A stretch of DNA of 64,000 bases from an uncultured Bacteroidales bacterium (GTDB lineage: Bacteria; Bacteroidota; Bacteroidia; Bacteroidales; Muribaculaceae): contig CASEAQ010000010.1 in NCBI GenBank assembly GCA_949285735.1, positions 19,910-83,909 of the forward strand. The letters run 5' to 3'. The notes beneath the pieces are model-generated. The model searched no databases and was not told the DNA's origin. It saw only the letters and a program-made list of their open reading frames with translations. Of this stretch, positions 38,214 to 50,454 are shown piece by piece. The number at the start of each line of letters is the position of its first letter. The stretch's first letter is position 1. A program made the position numbers and the translations under genes.

Positions 38214-39285
38214 CAACAAATACCACAACGTTCTCATAGCCCGCTTTTCGGCTCTTGGCGACGTGGCGATGACTATTCCGGTAGTCTATTCTGTGTGCAT
38301 TGGCAATCCAGGCACACGGTTCATCATTATTACGCAAAAAGTTGCTTCCACACTGTTCATAAACACCCCTAAAAACCTCGTAGTGCTCGGCATCGACACC
38401 AAGACCGACTACCACGGCGTGAAGGGCATGTACAAGCTCAAGCGCGAACTCGTAAAGAAATACGACATCGACCTCTTTATCGACCTGCACGACGTGTTGC
38501 GCACGTGGATTCTCGGGTCGGCGTTCCTCTTCGGCGGCATCAAGGTGATGCGGTTCAAGAAAGGCAGGCAAGGCAAGCACGAACTCACACGCAAACACAA
38601 CAAGCACATGCTGCCGCTCATCTCTTCGAGGGCGCGTTACCGCGAAGTATTCTATCGTGCAGGATTTTCAACCGATGACCTTTTCATGTCGATTTTCGGC
38701 AACAAGAAAGCCACACCCGAGCAATATGCCACCATTTCGACACCCAAACAAGAGGGTGAAATATGGATTGCAATAGCACCTTTTGCAAAGCATCAGGGTA
38801 AGATTTACCCGCTGCAATCAATGCGCAAAGTGGTGGAAACTGTCGCAAAATGGCCAGGCACAACCATCTTTCTCATGGGGGCAGGAAAAGAGGAATGCGA
38901 GGTGTTTGAACGCTGGGCAGAAAACTTCGATAATGTAAAAAACCTTGCCACACGCCGAAATGGTTTCCCGAGCGAATTGGCACTGCTGAGCAATTGCGAC
39001 GTGATGGTGTCGATGGATTCAGCCAATATGCACCTTGCCTCACTCGTTAGGCTCACGGTGGTCTCGGTGTGGGGAGCAACGCACCCCTATTGCGGTTTCC
39101 TCGGCTGGCACCAAGAAGAGCGCAACGCCGTCCAGCTCAACCTTTCGTGCCGCCCCTGCTCGGTATTCGGCAGCAAGCCATGTATGCGTGGCGACTACTT
39201 TTGCCTGACAGGCATACAACCGCAAATGATTATCGACCACATACGCCAAGCCCTTGCCGAAAAAGGCATTTATCCCACTTATTGA
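38194..39285 (+). CDS. GT9-family glycosyltransferase (heptosyltransferase-like)
   Basis: This 363-residue GT-B enzyme resembles ADP-heptose:LPS heptosyltransferases: 'VLIARFSALGDVAMTIPVVYSV' at the N-terminus, 'IDLFIDLHDVLRTWILGSAF', then the donor domain 'IAIAPFAKHQGKIYPLQSM' and 'ALLSNCDVMVSMDSANMHLASLVRLTVVSVWGATHPYCGFLGW'. Several cysteines near the C-terminus (CRPCSVFGSKPCMRGDYFC) are typical of a Bacteroidetes branch. It probably adds a core sugar to lipid A–Kdo. It is the last gene before the putative origin region. Confidence 0.87.
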   Translation: MQKNRGSNKYHNVLIARFSALGDVAMTIPVVYSVCIGNPGTRFIIITQKVASTLFINTPKNLVVLGIDTKTDYHGVKGMYKLKRELVKKYDIDLFIDLHDVLRTWILGSAFLFGGIKVMRFKKGRQGKHELTRKHNKHMLPLISSRARYREVFYRAGFSTDDLFMSIFGNKKATPEQYATISTPKQEGEIWIAIAPFAKHQGKIYPLQSMRKVVETVAKWPGTTIFLMGAGKEECEVFERWAENFDNVKNLATRRNGFPSELALLSNCDVMVSMDSANMHLASLVRLTVVSVWGATHPYCGFLGWHQEERNAVQLNLSCRPCSVFGSKPCMRGDYFCLTGIQPQMIIDHIRQALAEKGIYPTY

Positions 39286-39708
39286 CATTTGTCGATAATA
39301 ACCGCAATAATCTCTTTTCACACGTTATCAACATCAACTGTCAACATAGCTTGCACACAATGCAGGTTATGTTTTCTTTTTATACTTTTTTCTTTATAAA
39401 TAAACCCATTAGCCGATATTAACACCATGTTTATTTTATTGTCAACAATATGTTGAAATAGCAATAATGCACAACCATATAAATCTGAAATACAACAATT
39501 TAACAATATACAAACAAGTTAATAACCTTGTTAGGAACAGCAAATAAACCTATTTTGACTATGCTTCTCTTGCTACTCTGACATTATTAACACTAATCAA
39601 CACATGTTCATAACCTTGTTTTCAACATAATGTTGATTAGTGTTAGTATCGTAGTTGATATTTTTATAAACTATTGAAAACAATTATTTTAACAATATGA
39701 TTAATTGT
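39286..39708. other. AT-rich region with DnaA-box-like sites, left half of candidate oriC
   Basis: This is 423 bases without a gene. Sites close to the DnaA box TTATnCACA are TTATCAACA (39325–39333), TAATGCACA (39465–39473), TTATTAACT on the minus strand (39517–39525), TTATTAACA (39584–39592), TTATGAACA minus (39605–39613) and TTATAAACA minus (39706–39714). 'ATAACCTTGTT' occurs twice (near 39522 and 39611). The composition is very AT-rich, as expected of an unwinding element. Confidence 0.55.
39588..39645. repeat. Perfect 15-bp inverted repeat within candidate oriC
   Basis: TAACACTAATCAACA (39588–39602) and its exact complement TGTTGATTAGTGTTA (39631–39645) are separated by 28 bases that contain TTATGAACA (minus) and TTTTCAACA. 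No T tract follows on either strand, so it does not look like a terminator. Confidence 0.85.
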
Positions 39709-40251
39709 TTATAACTCTGTAAATAAAGCCATCTTTTTAAAGAAGTGCCATATCACTATTCCAGCACTTATTGACACGTTTAGCGAATGCTTGGTGCCAT
39801 ATTGGGGGATTTCCAAACAATAATCACTCATGTCAATAACTTGCTGGCAAACCCCCTTTACTTCATTGCCAAGCACCACGGCATAGCGTTTTCCTTCCTC
39901 CACAGTAAAGTCGTTGAGAGAAACACTGCCATTGACTTGTTCTATTGAACAAACAACATATCCCTCGCCACGCAATTGCTCTATTGCATCGGTAACTTGC
40001 CCGAAGTAAATCCACTCTACCGAGTCCTCGGCACCAAGTGCTGTCTTGTGAATATCGGGGTGGGGTGGAGTTGCCGATATGCCACACAGCACAATGCGCT
40101 CTACCACAAAGGCATCGCTCGTGCGGAATATCGAACCTATGTTGTTGAGACTGCGCACATCGTCGAGCACCACTACGAGCGGAATCTTGCGCGTATGCTT
40201 GAACTGCTCGCACGAAATGCGATGCAACTCCATCATTGTTTTCTTCTTCAT
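39709..40251 (-). CDS. TrmH/SpoU-family RNA 2'-O-methyltransferase
   Basis: This 180-residue SPOUT methyltransferase has its three motifs: 'RSLNNIGSIFRTSDAF' (motif 1), 'VVLGNEVKGV' (motif 2) and 'LEIPQYGTKHSLNVSISAGIVIWHFF' (motif 3, SAM-binding knot). It uses SAM to methylate a ribose 2'-OH in tRNA or rRNA. The exact target is not predictable. It lies alone between two long non-coding AT-rich stretches. A start five codons downstream (MELHRIS) is also possible. Confidence 0.9.
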   Translation of the reverse strand: MKKKTMMELHRISCEQFKHTRKIPLVVVLDDVRSLNNIGSIFRTSDAFVVERIVLCGISATPPHPDIHKTALGAEDSVEWIYFGQVTDAIEQLRGEGYVVCSIEQVNGSVSLNDFTVEEGKRYAVVLGNEVKGVCQQVIDMSDYCLEIPQYGTKHSLNVSISAGIVIWHFFKKMALFTEL

Positions 40252-40683
40252 GACCGTTGTTTATATTGATGATAAATCTATGACAATAACCTGTTAGAAA
40301 CTGGTGAAAACCCAAAAGACAAAAAATAACAATTTTATTTTCATTTCACGGGAATTTGTATAAGCCAGCAACCGTAACCAAACTCCAAAATTGTTATTGT
40401 TTTGTTTTATCGATGTTTTCACCAAGCATTTTGGTAGGTTATTAATACTTTTTACTCGCAAATTTATTAACTTTGCACGATACTAACAAAGTGTTTATAA
40501 AATGCTTAAATGATTGATGCGTAGCCTACAAAGATGTGCATAACATATTAATTATGCCCTCTGGCGACATTAATAACTTGTTATGCAAGGAAAATGAGAA
40601 TAATTTATTTCCATTATTAACGCACAATAAGCATAATCATAAAAAGAAGTTTTTAAAAATAAAAAAAGAAAATATTTATAGTT
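40252..40683. other. AT-rich region with DnaA-box-like sites, right half of candidate oriC
   Basis: This is 432 bases without a gene. TTATGCACA on the minus strand (40535–40543) matches the DnaA box TTATnCACA exactly. Near matches are TTATTAACT (40464–40472), TTATAAACA minus (40492–40500) and TTATTAACG (40614–40622). Variants of the repeated motif occur as 'AATAACCTGTTAG' (near 40284) and 'AATAACTTGTTATG' (near 40572). A −7-like TAACTTTG (40468–40475) could be the nadA promoter with a leader of about 200 bases. Confidence 0.55.
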
Positions 40684-41652
40684 ATGAATGTTGACAACGG
40701 TTATGTCGATGCTCCAATCATGGAAGGAACAGACCTCAAGAAAGAGATTCTGCGCTTGAAGCAGGAAAAGAATGCCGTGATTCTTGCCCACTATTACCAG
40801 CGGCCCGAAATACAGGATATAGCCGATTTCATTGGCGACAGCCTTGCCCTTGCCCAGATTGCCTCGAAGAGCACTGCCGACATCATTGTGATGTGTGGTG
40901 TGCAATTCATGGGCGAAACCGCAAAGGTGCTTTGCATGGACAAGAAAGTGATTGTTCCCGACATGAATGCCGAATGCAGCCTTGCCGACAGTTGCCCTGC
41001 CGACGAGTTTGAAAAGTTTGTGAAAGCACATCCGGGATATACCGTTATCAGCTATGTCAACACGACGGCTGCCGTGAAGGCGTTTACCGACATCGTTGTC
41101 ACCAGCAGCAATGCACGGCAGATTGTTGACAGCTTGCCTGCCGACGAGAAAATCATCTTCGGTCCCGACCGCAACCTTGGCAACTATATAAATATGCAGA
41201 CGGGCAGGAATATGCTCCTGTGGGATGGTGCCTGCCATGTGCATGAGCAATTCTCGATTGAAAAGATTCTGAAGTTGAAGGAGGAGAACCCGGGGGCAAA
41301 GGTGCTTGTACACCCCGAATGCCGCCGACCGGTGCAGATGGTTGCCGACAAGGTGGGTTCGACCAAGGCGTTGCTCGACTATGCTGTGAATAGCGACTGC
41401 GACACCTTCATCGTTGCCACCGAGAGCGGGATATTGCACGAGATGGAAAAGAAGTGCCCCGACAAGAAGTTCATACCTGCGCCTCCCGAAGATGGCACTT
41501 GCAGTTGCAACGAATGCAGCTTCATGAAGCTCGTCACGCTCGAAAAGCTGTATAACTCGCTCAAATATGAGTTGCCGGTGGTGGAAGTTTCTGCCGAACT
41601 TGCCGAGAAAGCAATCCGCCCTATAAAGAGAATGCTTGAAATGTCGAAATAA
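40684..41652 (+). CDS. nadA: Quinolinate synthase A
   Basis: This 322-residue [4Fe-4S] enzyme condenses iminoaspartate with dihydroxyacetone phosphate to quinolinate in de novo NAD synthesis. Diagnostic segments are '[27 protein letters not shown]', '[14 protein letters not shown]', '[18 protein letters not shown]', '[10 protein letters not shown]', '[11 protein letters not shown]', '[10 protein letters not shown]' and the C-terminal cluster region '[12 protein letters not shown]'. Its partner nadB lies at 57045, unusually not adjacent. leuS follows after 29 bases. Confidence 0.96.
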
Positions 41653-48682: not shown

Positions 48683-48973
48683 CTATCTAATCACTATGTC
48701 GTGGATTACTTCGTTGCCGGCGGCTTCGTTGAGGCGTTTTATCAGGGTGGTGCGGCTCATCATCAGCTCGTTGCGCAGCACTGCCGACGAGATGTGCAGG
48801 TATAGCACTCCGTTTTTCACCCATCGGCTTGTTGTATAGCGGTTTATGCCCTGTCCAACGACTTCGGGCCACAGATACACCACCTTTTGTTCATCAAATT
48901 GGCGGTCGAGATTGTCTTCTTTCAGCAGTTGGCTTATGATGTCGCCAACGGTCTTTGCCTCGGTTCGTTTCAT
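48683..48973 (-). CDS. DUF721/DciA-like protein
   Basis: This 96-residue protein resembles DUF721/DciA: 'VGDIISQLLKEDNLDRQFDEQKVVYLWPEVVGQGINRYTTSRWVKNGVLYLHISSAVLRNELMM…LIKRLNEAAGNEVIHDIVIR'. DciA loads or regulates the replicative helicase DnaB in bacteria without DnaC. Its start overlaps the recF stop by 4 bases, so the two are cotranscribed. The pairing with recF fits a replication role and proximity to an origin. Confidence 0.8.
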   Translation of the reverse strand: MKRTEAKTVGDIISQLLKEDNLDRQFDEQKVVYLWPEVVGQGINRYTTSRWVKNGVLYLHISSAVLRNELMMSRTTLIKRLNEAAGNEVIHDIVIR

Positions 48974-50091
48974 TTGTTCCCCTCCTCCTTCTGTGCTGAT
49001 TCAGTAAGTGTGAAAGTGCCGGCTTTCACGCTCCATGTGCGGTAGTCTTTCCCTACGCGGCGTATTATGTGGTCGAGGTGGGTGCGGTTGGTGTCGGTGA
49101 TGAAAATCTGTCCGAAAGTGTCGCCAGCCACCACGCCTATGATGTTTTCCACACGGTGGGCATCGAGTTTGTCGAAAATGTCGTCGAGCAGCAGCAGCGG
49201 CGTTATTCCGCTCATGCGTTTCAAGAAGTCGTATTGCGCGAGCCTCATGGCTACGGTGTAGGTCTTGCATTGCCCCTGCGAGCCAATCTTGCGCATGGGG
49301 TGGTCGTCGAGCAGCAGTTCGATGTCGTCGCGGTGCACGCCGGTCGATGTGTAGCCAAGCACCGAGTCGCGCTCACGGTTGGCATTGAGCAGTTGCTGCA
49401 TTGCCGACTGGTTGAGGTGGCTGCGGTAGGCGAGCGATACGGTTTCGGCGCTGTCGGAGATTTGGCGGTAATATTGCAGGAATATTGGCGAAAATTCCTC
49501 CACCCACGCCGTGCGCGACTGGTGTATGTAGGTTGCCGACGTGCTTATTTGTTGCTCGATGCTTTCAAACAGCAACGGGTCGCGGAATCCGCGGCGCAGC
49601 ATCACGTTGCGGTTTTCGATGGCGCGGGCATACTTTATGAGGTGCGACATATATTCGCTGTCGCCTTGCGAGATTATTTGGTCAACAAATCGGCGGCGGT
49701 CTTCGCCCGTGCCGCGTATCATTTCCCAGTCCATCGGCGATACCATCACGAGCGGCAGCAGCCCGATGTGTCGGCTCAGCTTGTCATATTCCTTGCCGCC
49801 GCGTTTCACTGCCTTGCGCTTGCCAGGCTTGAAGCCTATCGAGATTTCCTCGTCTTGTCCTCGCCGGTCATATTTGCCTTGCACAAGCATGAAGTCGGCA
49901 TCGTGCTGCAGCAGTGCGGCATCGCCCATGCCCGTGTAGCTTTTGCAGAAGCTAAGGTAGAAGATGGCGTCGAGCAAGTTGGTCTTGCCCATGCCGTTAT
50001 CGCCGATGAAGCAGTTGACGTTGCTCGAAAAGTCGAGTTGAGCCTCGGCTATATTCTTGAAATTCAATATCGAGATGCTACGCAGTATCAT
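48970..50091 (-). CDS. recF: DNA replication and repair protein RecF
   Basis: This 373-residue SMC-like ATPase helps load RecA at single-strand gaps with RecO and RecR. The Walker A is GDNGMGKT at 30–37, the signature-like region is 'GSQGQCKTYTVAMRLAQYDFL', and Walker B is 'TPLLLLDDIFDKLDAHR'. The frame is open 28 codons upstream, but the ATG at 50091 begins at the conserved 'ILRSISILNFKNI'. It lies about 9 kb from the candidate oriC; recF is frequently near origins. Confidence 0.93.
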   Translation of the reverse strand: MILRSISILNFKNIAEAQLDFSSNVNCFIGDNGMGKTNLLDAIFYLSFCKSYTGMGDAALLQHDADFMLVQGKYDRRGQDEEISIGFKPGKRKAVKRGGKEYDKLSRHIGLLPLVMVSPMDWEMIRGTGEDRRRFVDQIISQGDSEYMSHLIKYARAIENRNVMLRRGFRDPLLFESIEQQISTSATYIHQSRTAWVEEFSPIFLQYYRQISDSAETVSLAYRSHLNQSAMQQLLNANRERDSVLGYTSTGVHRDDIELLLDDHPMRKIGSQGQCKTYTVAMRLAQYDFLKRMSGITPLLLLDDIFDKLDAHRVENIIGVVAGDTFGQIFITDTNRTHLDHIIRRVGKDYRTWSVKAGTFTLTESAQKEEGNK

Positions 50092-50454
50092 ACGTGCAAA
50101 GTTAAGAAATATTGCCGTGCGATGAATAGTGCGCGGTTTTGAAATATTTGATTTTATTTGTAACGCGACAGCCAATATTCTCCTTGGTAAGTAGTTGCGT
50201 CATAATTACAAATATACAATTTCCATGCTGGTTGAAATGTCATCAAAATTGTGACGTAAAACTCTAATAAATATAAACGATTTTAGGTTCTTTGTCTATT
50301 AATATTAAGGATTTGTAAACAGGTTAATTGTTCTTAATTAAAGCCGTTGCAGATGAGATATAAATGTATTTTTGCCATTAAAAAATGTATTGTCATAGTA
50401 ATCTTTTGAGTGTGTCACGCCGCCCACTCTTTGTTTAATCCCAAATAGAACTTG
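50092..50454. promoter_or_regulatory. Divergent upstream region of recF and the DUF4249 gene
   Basis: This AT-rich gap of 363 bases has no gene. TATTTTTG (50367–50374) is a possible −7 box for the DUF4249–receptor pair, with a leader of about 70 bases. No convincing −33 element or operator is visible. Confidence 0.35.

Follow-up and report, generated by a model that had tools for sequence, protein, structure and literature searches.

The stretch of DNA analysed here (64,000 nucleotides, hereafter the window) belongs to an 84-kb contig from a MAG (2.6 Mb, 85 contigs, 80% complete). We infer that its host belongs to the order Bacteroidales, family Muribaculaceae. Near the middle of the window, a trmH-like gene is flanked by two non-coding gaps. 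The left gap is bounded by the converging 3' ends of trmH and of a family 9 glycosyltransferase gene; the right gap separates trmH from nadA. The features are, by position in the window:

39286–39708, no strand: left (distal) half of the proposed bipartite oriC; AT-rich, with the densest TTATnAACA cluster of the region
39325–39333, plus strand: DnaA-type box TTATCAACA, left gap
39584–39592, plus strand: DnaA-type box TTATTAACA, left gap
39585–39648, no strand: 18-bp inverted repeat with a 28-nt loop, downstream of trmH
39605–39613, minus strand: DnaA-type box TTATGAACA, left gap
39706–39714, minus strand: DnaA-type box TTATAAACA, overlapping the 3' end of trmH
39709–40251, minus strand: trmH-like gene (SpoU rRNA methylase family), between the two box clusters
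40252–40683, no strand: right (proximal) half of the proposed oriC, the trmH-nadA gap; AT-rich, with the skew minimum and change point
40468–40475, plus strand: TAACTTTG, presumed nadA promoter element fitting TAnnTTTG; most conserved block of the gap
40487, no strand: minimum of the cumulative GC skew
40492–40500, minus strand: DnaA-type box TTATAAACA; TTATAAACA or TTATGAACA at this place in 8/9 genus genomes
40535–40543, minus strand: DnaA-type box TTATGCACA, 43 nt from the box at 40492; TTATn[AC]ACA at this place in 7/9 genus genomes
40684–41652, plus strand: nadA (quinolinate synthase), which marks the place of the origin in relatives
48683–48973, minus strand: dciA (helicase operator; PF05258, E 2.7e-18)
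48970–50175, minus strand: recF-like gene (RecF/RecN/SMC N-terminal domain, Pfam)

A preliminary description of this locus had proposed a replication origin, pointing to AT-rich DNA on both sides of trmH. The two stretches are real, with an AT content of 72.8% in the left gap (423 bases) and 72.2% in the right one (432 bases) vs 50.7% in the window. When the 64 kb are scanned in 400-nt windows (step 50), the four highest AT contents all fall in these gaps. The AT-rich region expected of an oriC is present in both gaps, at 72–73% AT, as a predicted unwinding region. The same description mentioned recF and a dciA-like gene in the vicinity, and Pfam confirms both domains 8–10 kb away. It also remarked that dnaA is not adjacent to the candidate origin: dnaA sits on another contig, which has no skew sign change over the 60 kb read.

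Fourteen sites within one mismatch of TTATnCACA are found in 39286–40683 and 71 in the whole window. Shuffles of the window give 60 such sites in all, or about 1.3 per stretch of this length, so that the observed density is about ten times higher. The count of at least ten DnaA-box-like sites given earlier thus holds; the weight laid on the exact match TTATGCACA at 40535 does not, since the window has six exact TTATnCACA matches, this one included, and such a match alone is no marker. No canonical TTATCCACA is present in 39200–40800. For TTATnAACA, which is the more telling class, three copies lie in a 430-nt stretch of the left gap vs 0.17 expected, a number reached in 0/2000 first-order Markov simulations; the right gap alone has one vs 0.10 expected (P 0.10).

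Two other elements of these gaps were considered. The motif ATAACCTTGTTA, described earlier as recurring four to five times, does have copies here (one exact and one with a single mismatch in the left gap, one with two mismatches in the right gap). At up to two mismatches, the window has eight copies vs 4.1 expected, and 5/100 shuffles reach that number; as a separate origin element, the motif is weak in the window. AATAACTT, which partly resembles ATAACCTTGTTA, is conserved in the trmH-nadA gap, and we claim no function for it. As single-stranded DNA, the hairpin at 39585–39648 folds far better than shuffled sequences (z −5.0). It was rejected as a conserved element, because an exact inverted repeat of 15 or more is found in only 2/9 genus genomes (the window and G059, where it is longer) and in none of the other seven.

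The cumulative GC skew of the window has a single sharp minimum at 40,487, inside the trmH-nadA gap. A change-point test places the switch at 40,490 (2-unit support interval 39,990–41,270), with a log-likelihood gain of 65 in the window and of 90 over the whole 84-kb contig. The sign change of base skew described earlier is confirmed, and the hand counts on which it was based (55 G and 77 C to the left, 70 G and 51 C to the right) are exactly right. In ORFs of the two orientations, skew is −0.06 and −0.07 on the left and +0.07 and +0.07 on the right, and at third codon positions like-oriented ORFs differ by about 0.22 between the two sides; these values come from automatic ORF calls, some of them spurious, in which nadA itself is displaced by an antisense ORF. 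Since the same step is found in ORFs of both strands, gene direction is not its explanation.

The switch recurs at the same gene in relatives. The skew minimum lies 38–197 nt upstream of nadA in 9/9 genus genomes, in stretches of 12–84 kb (the contig of one of them, G063, extends only 1.5 kb on the nadA side). A near-complete relative, G057, has a 3.3-Mb contig that was sampled in 20 stretches, one every 165 kb. Skew is positive in eight samples up to 1.18 Mb, negative in ten (1.32–2.83 Mb) and positive again in the last two, so that a single maximum and a single minimum are separated by about half the contig. A fine scan of 2.805–2.990 Mb puts the minimum at 2,945,817, 1.6 kb upstream of nadA. 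In this genome trmH is 70 kb from nadA, and dnaA, at 0.684 Mb, is 2.3 Mb from nadA along the contig (1.0 Mb by way of the ends, should the contig be circular). Because both trmH and dnaA are far from the minimum, it is nadA that marks the spot. The preliminary description had predicted that the skew minimum of the whole chromosome would fall at this locus; this is borne out on the 84-kb contig, in the nine genus stretches and in the genome-wide sample of G057, the host's own MAG being divided into 85 contigs. A minimum just upstream of nadA at these three levels supports the origin interpretation.

Two wider samples were used. Among named Bacteroidales, the best 80 nadA loci of a scan were retained, 59/80 of which are flanked by at least 3 kb on each side. 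In 49/59, the DNA to the right of nadA has a higher skew than that to the left, with a change from negative to positive in 28/59. The minimum within ±3 kb is found in the interval from 700 nt upstream to 100 nt downstream of nadA in 28/59 vs 7.9 expected. Ten of the 59 show no skew rise across nadA, six of these going from positive to negative. The order sample comprised 60 genomes from 59 families, 52 of them with nadA (own genome included); 40 of the 51 other nadA neighbourhoods were analysed, two in which nadA begins the contig being omitted, and 30/40 have 3-kb flanks. In these, skew is higher on the right in 29/30 and goes from negative to positive in 23/30; the minimum lies at most 600 nt upstream of nadA in 15/30, and one locus of the 30 goes from positive to negative. 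It should be noted that the two samples overlap (L137 and L334, for instance, are the same contig), so that their counts are not to be added. Two complete genomes from outside the Bacteroidales that were read at nadA, G066 and G096, have no skew minimum there. The exceptional loci point either to lineages in which the origin or the DNA around it has moved, or to faulty assemblies. In this phylum, inversions are known to be less tied to the origin axis (PMC5850607). One relative, G007, has a 1.6-Mb contig (C11, L092–L114) with repeated skew sign changes and a local maximum at nadA; this genome is rearranged or its scaffold misjoined.

The same positions carry boxes. TTATnAACA reaches 4.2 per kb in the last 250 nt before nadA and 2.2 per kb in the preceding 250, vs a background of 0.2 per kb, so that a DnaA-box cluster above chance is found for this variant. 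TTATnCACA, which the preliminary description had taken as the consensus, is raised about five-fold (0.4–0.5 vs 0.09 per kb). It was rejected as the main box, TTATnAACA being far denser and the abundant class; boxes of the C type may contribute too. Reversed box patterns stay near background before nadA. In the order sample, 63 A-type boxes vs ten C-type boxes lie within 600 nt of nadA in the 30 loci; an A-type box is present in 24/30, and 6/30 have no TTATnAACA in that interval. Word counts were made on 58/79 nadA-upstream gaps of 250–1,150 nt (57 from the best 80 named loci, plus the window), with gap lengths taken from automatic ORFs. TTATCAACA is present in 36/58 of these gaps, where Markov simulations give 0.9; the trmH-nadA gap of the window has none. 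Named loci whose skew has a local minimum at nadA do not differ in box number from those that lack one (1.75 vs 1.71). Across the host's own genome, TTATnAACA is not over-represented (155 vs 181 for the reversed pattern). Equal box density in other intergenic regions had been named as an argument against an origin. In 211 kb of the host's own DNA scanned, one equally dense cluster was found, at the parA promoter (C8:51.3–51.76 kb), on a contig with no skew sign change.

That cluster deserves a description of its own. Upstream of parA, at G000:C8:51697–51753 (L211:11697–11753), the boxes TTATCAACA, TTATTAACA and TTATCAACA stand 98–146 nt before the gene. With nearly fixed spacing, the inner two are found in 9/9 genus genomes and all three in 7/9. 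This suggests a putative control of parAB by DnaA, or by another regulator with the same site.

In the nine aligned genus genomes, the core of the trmH-nadA gap, from GTTATTAATA to TAACAAAGTGTTTATAA, is strongly conserved. It contains the promoter-like TTAACTTTGCA, which is the best conserved block and keeps a nearly fixed distance from nadA, and a box, with the second box 43 nt further. TAACTTTG fits TAnnTTTG, which we take to be the −7 element of Bacteroidales promoters. Among the 58 nadA-upstream gaps (best 80 named loci and the window), the most enriched 9-mer is GCAAAGTTA, present in 37 vs 0.4 expected.

On the other side of trmH, the stretch from −1400 to −970 has 22 TTATnAACA over the nine genus genomes vs 1.51 expected, and the trmH-nadA gap has ten vs 1.2 expected. 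One of these genomes, G023, has none in the far stretch and two at the end of trmH (−969 and −957). Outside the window's genus, 70 of the best 80 named loci have enough sequence for comparison. In 25/70, trmH adjoins nadA divergently; boxes are found in the 500 nt beyond trmH in 12/25 of these loci vs 1/45 of the loci without trmH at a like distance (Fisher P 5e-6). Boxes are also raised inside trmH (ten in 13.1 kb) and 500–1000 nt beyond it (14 in 12.5 kb) in the same 25 loci, so that the distal cluster is broad and not sharply bounded. Boxes on both sides where trmH adjoins nadA are the reason why we call the origin bipartite, and they suggest a bipartite origin that would enclose trmH.

The initiator itself was then compared. 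The host's own DnaA is homologous to domain IV of E. coli DnaA (PDB 1J1V; E 7.8e-12), and its S-RNHATV is aligned with E. coli GGRDHTTV. Positions 433 and 435 (D and the first T of E. coli RDHTT) are N and A in the host protein. At position 435, Thr in E. coli, Ala is found in 11/11 proteins of the family and in 49 of the 57 readable order-level proteins (of 58), vs Ser or Thr in 32/32 other proteins of the phylum, with Ala in 0/32; these 32 are the best 30 of 59 genomes sampled plus G066 and G096, 28 of them read by script and four by eye. Asp at position 433 is replaced by Asn, Thr or Ser in 10/11 family proteins. We infer that a changed recognition helix in Bacteroidales DnaA (at position 435 and, in most proteins of this family, at 433 too) would explain why the boxes are mostly TTATnAACA and not TTATCCACA. 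Only two genomes with an RDH[ST]T helix were read at nadA: within 1.6 kb, G066 has four C-type boxes and no A-type box, and G096 three C-type and one A-type. A joint change of box and DnaA is plausible from these few outgroup sites (G066, G096). An explanation by a single residue is not cleanly supported, as G179 has Ser at 435, yet eight A-type and two C-type boxes, and the outgroup genomes number two.

Taken together, the composition, skew and box data indicate that 39286–40683 is, with high probability, the chromosomal replication origin (oriC) of this Bacteroidales bacterium. DnaA would bind to the box clusters that flank trmH on either side. Opening of the AT-rich trmH-nadA gap would follow, DnaB helicase would be loaded, presumably with the help of DciA (dciA being 8 kb away), and two forks would depart in opposite directions. 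The skew switch would have arisen because forks left in opposite directions over time. As a guess, transcription from the presumed nadA promoter at the skew minimum may help opening. We further propose, as a tentative scheme to which we give slightly less than an even chance, that in most Bacteroidales the code between initiator and origin has been rewritten (loss of the Thr on which the sequence specificity of E. coli DnaA depends; boxes changed from TTATCCACA to TTATnAACA), that the origin is fixed before nadA and was ancestrally bipartite, enclosing trmH, and that the same code at the parA promoter couples initiation to segregation.

Other readings of these data have to be weighed. One of them keeps an origin at this locus and makes it monopartite: the trmH-nadA gap alone would work, and the boxes beyond trmH would be accessory or belong to the region of converging terminators. 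In its favor, the right gap has both the skew minimum and the boxes of conserved position; of the 25 trmH loci among the best 80 named, 13 have no TTATnAACA within 500 nt beyond trmH, and the rise in boxes there has no sharp boundary. Nevertheless, the contrast between loci with and without trmH (12/25 vs 1/45), and the larger number of boxes in the left than in the right stretch of the genus (22 vs 10), speak against it. A monopartite origin has an appreciable chance of being right, though we do not favor it. It is, on the other hand, very improbable that the conserved gap is only the promoter and leader of nadA, with the boxes as promoter elements and the origin a few kilobases off. Such a reading would account for the conservation of TTAACTTTGCA at its nearly fixed distance and for the enrichment of GCAAAGTTA (best 80 named loci and window); it does not account for a skew change point in the gap, nor for the genus minimum in the same gap, and boxes beyond trmH are unlikely to serve nadA. 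A structured nadA leader or riboswitch was rejected as well, since no Rfam family matches at E 1 or better in 36–45 kb, save a tRNA at 44.7 kb.

Whether DnaA is the protein that reads TTATnAACA may also be asked. We judge it unlikely that another protein does so, for instance a regulator common to the origin and the parA promoter, although three boxes with nearly fixed spacing before parA, away from the origin (7/9; inner two 9/9), would be in line with this. DnaA itself is also known to act at promoters. Moreover, TTATnAACA is one position off the E. coli box, and the box-reading residues of DnaA differ too. TTATCAACA has already been called a DnaA box at a Cyanothece origin (PMC4674748). Finally, the genome being a fragmented MAG, the skew switch could in principle stem from misassembly or from a local inversion. 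This is scarcely credible, since eight other genus genomes and many other families show that switch at the same gene.

The proposed bipartite origin can be compared with known systems. The oriC of B. subtilis is bipartite. The same holds for the oriCs described in Epsilonproteobacteria (PMC5043019), whose typical place is ruvC-dnaA-dnaN; here, a SpoU-type methylase gene is enclosed and dnaA lies elsewhere. According to the same source, box specificity is thought to depend on helix 5 of DnaA, and position 435 in Epsilon- and Deltaproteobacteria is Ser, less often Thr or Ala. E. coli, with DnaA domain IV (PDB 1J1V) and TTATCCACA, shares with the present case a homologous DNA-binding domain and 9-bp boxes; it differs in that most boxes here have A, not C, at position 6, and N and A at DnaA positions 433 and 435. 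In the predicted origin of the linear chromosome of Cyanothece 51142, one of two boxes is TTATCAACA (PMC4674748). This is a single TTATCAACA beside TTATCCATA in a cyanobacterium, and not a clade-wide change. Within the order, the predicted oriC of Prevotella intermedia OMA14 resembles the present one, with a skew transition and boxes and with dnaA not nearby (PMC4755523). Citing DoriC, that source states that oriC is commonly far from dnaA in Bacteroidetes, so that adjacency to dnaA is not defining in this phylum. The P. intermedia study used E. coli boxes with one mismatch and, in the portion available, names no neighbor genes; the present analysis describes where the origin lies (before nadA, around trmH), which box variant it uses and how DnaA differs.

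Two elements are already known: Bacteroidetes origins away from dnaA (PMC4755523) and TTATCAACA as a DnaA box once, in Cyanothece (PMC4674748). Among the papers listed by a search of open literature, none was found on the nadA-trmH place of the origin or on the DnaA change of Bacteroidales; that single Bacteroidales origins have been listed earlier, in DoriC or in subscription journals, is quite possible. Bacteroidales count among the dominant bacteria of the human gut, and growth-rate estimates from metagenomes need the replication start site. A simple rule, to look upstream of nadA for TTATnAACA boxes, would make origins easier to locate in draft genomes for which dnaA is a misleading guide. 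If DnaA position 435 and box position 6 have changed jointly, as suggested here, the two sides of an essential protein-DNA code would have drifted in step, which can be tested. It would also be unusual for an origin to enclose an unrelated methylase gene.

Two further observations may be added. The first concerns a candidate independent marker of the origin, GTTnCACGTGnAAC, which we take to be the parS palindrome consensus. A search of 412 loci gave 18 sites in 11 loci, all among the 142 nadA-neighbourhood loci (2.50 Mb), vs none in 52 other long loci (1.03 Mb; from four genomes, the nadA region of G007 included); about 0.15 sites in 2.5 Mb are expected by chance for the 12 fixed bases. No such site was found in the stretches read from the window's genus, and parS was rejected in the window, where the best matches are at chance level. 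In other families, parS-like palindromes lie about 2 to 12.6 kb from nadA in L165, L194, L195, L343, L344, L354, L362, L367, L372, L391 and L081. The second concerns G057: its contig C1 has three additional weak matches to a DnaA domain near 1.33 and 1.59 Mb (L074, L075), two of them with the same score (E 9e-5); they are perhaps copies of a mobile-element ATPase.
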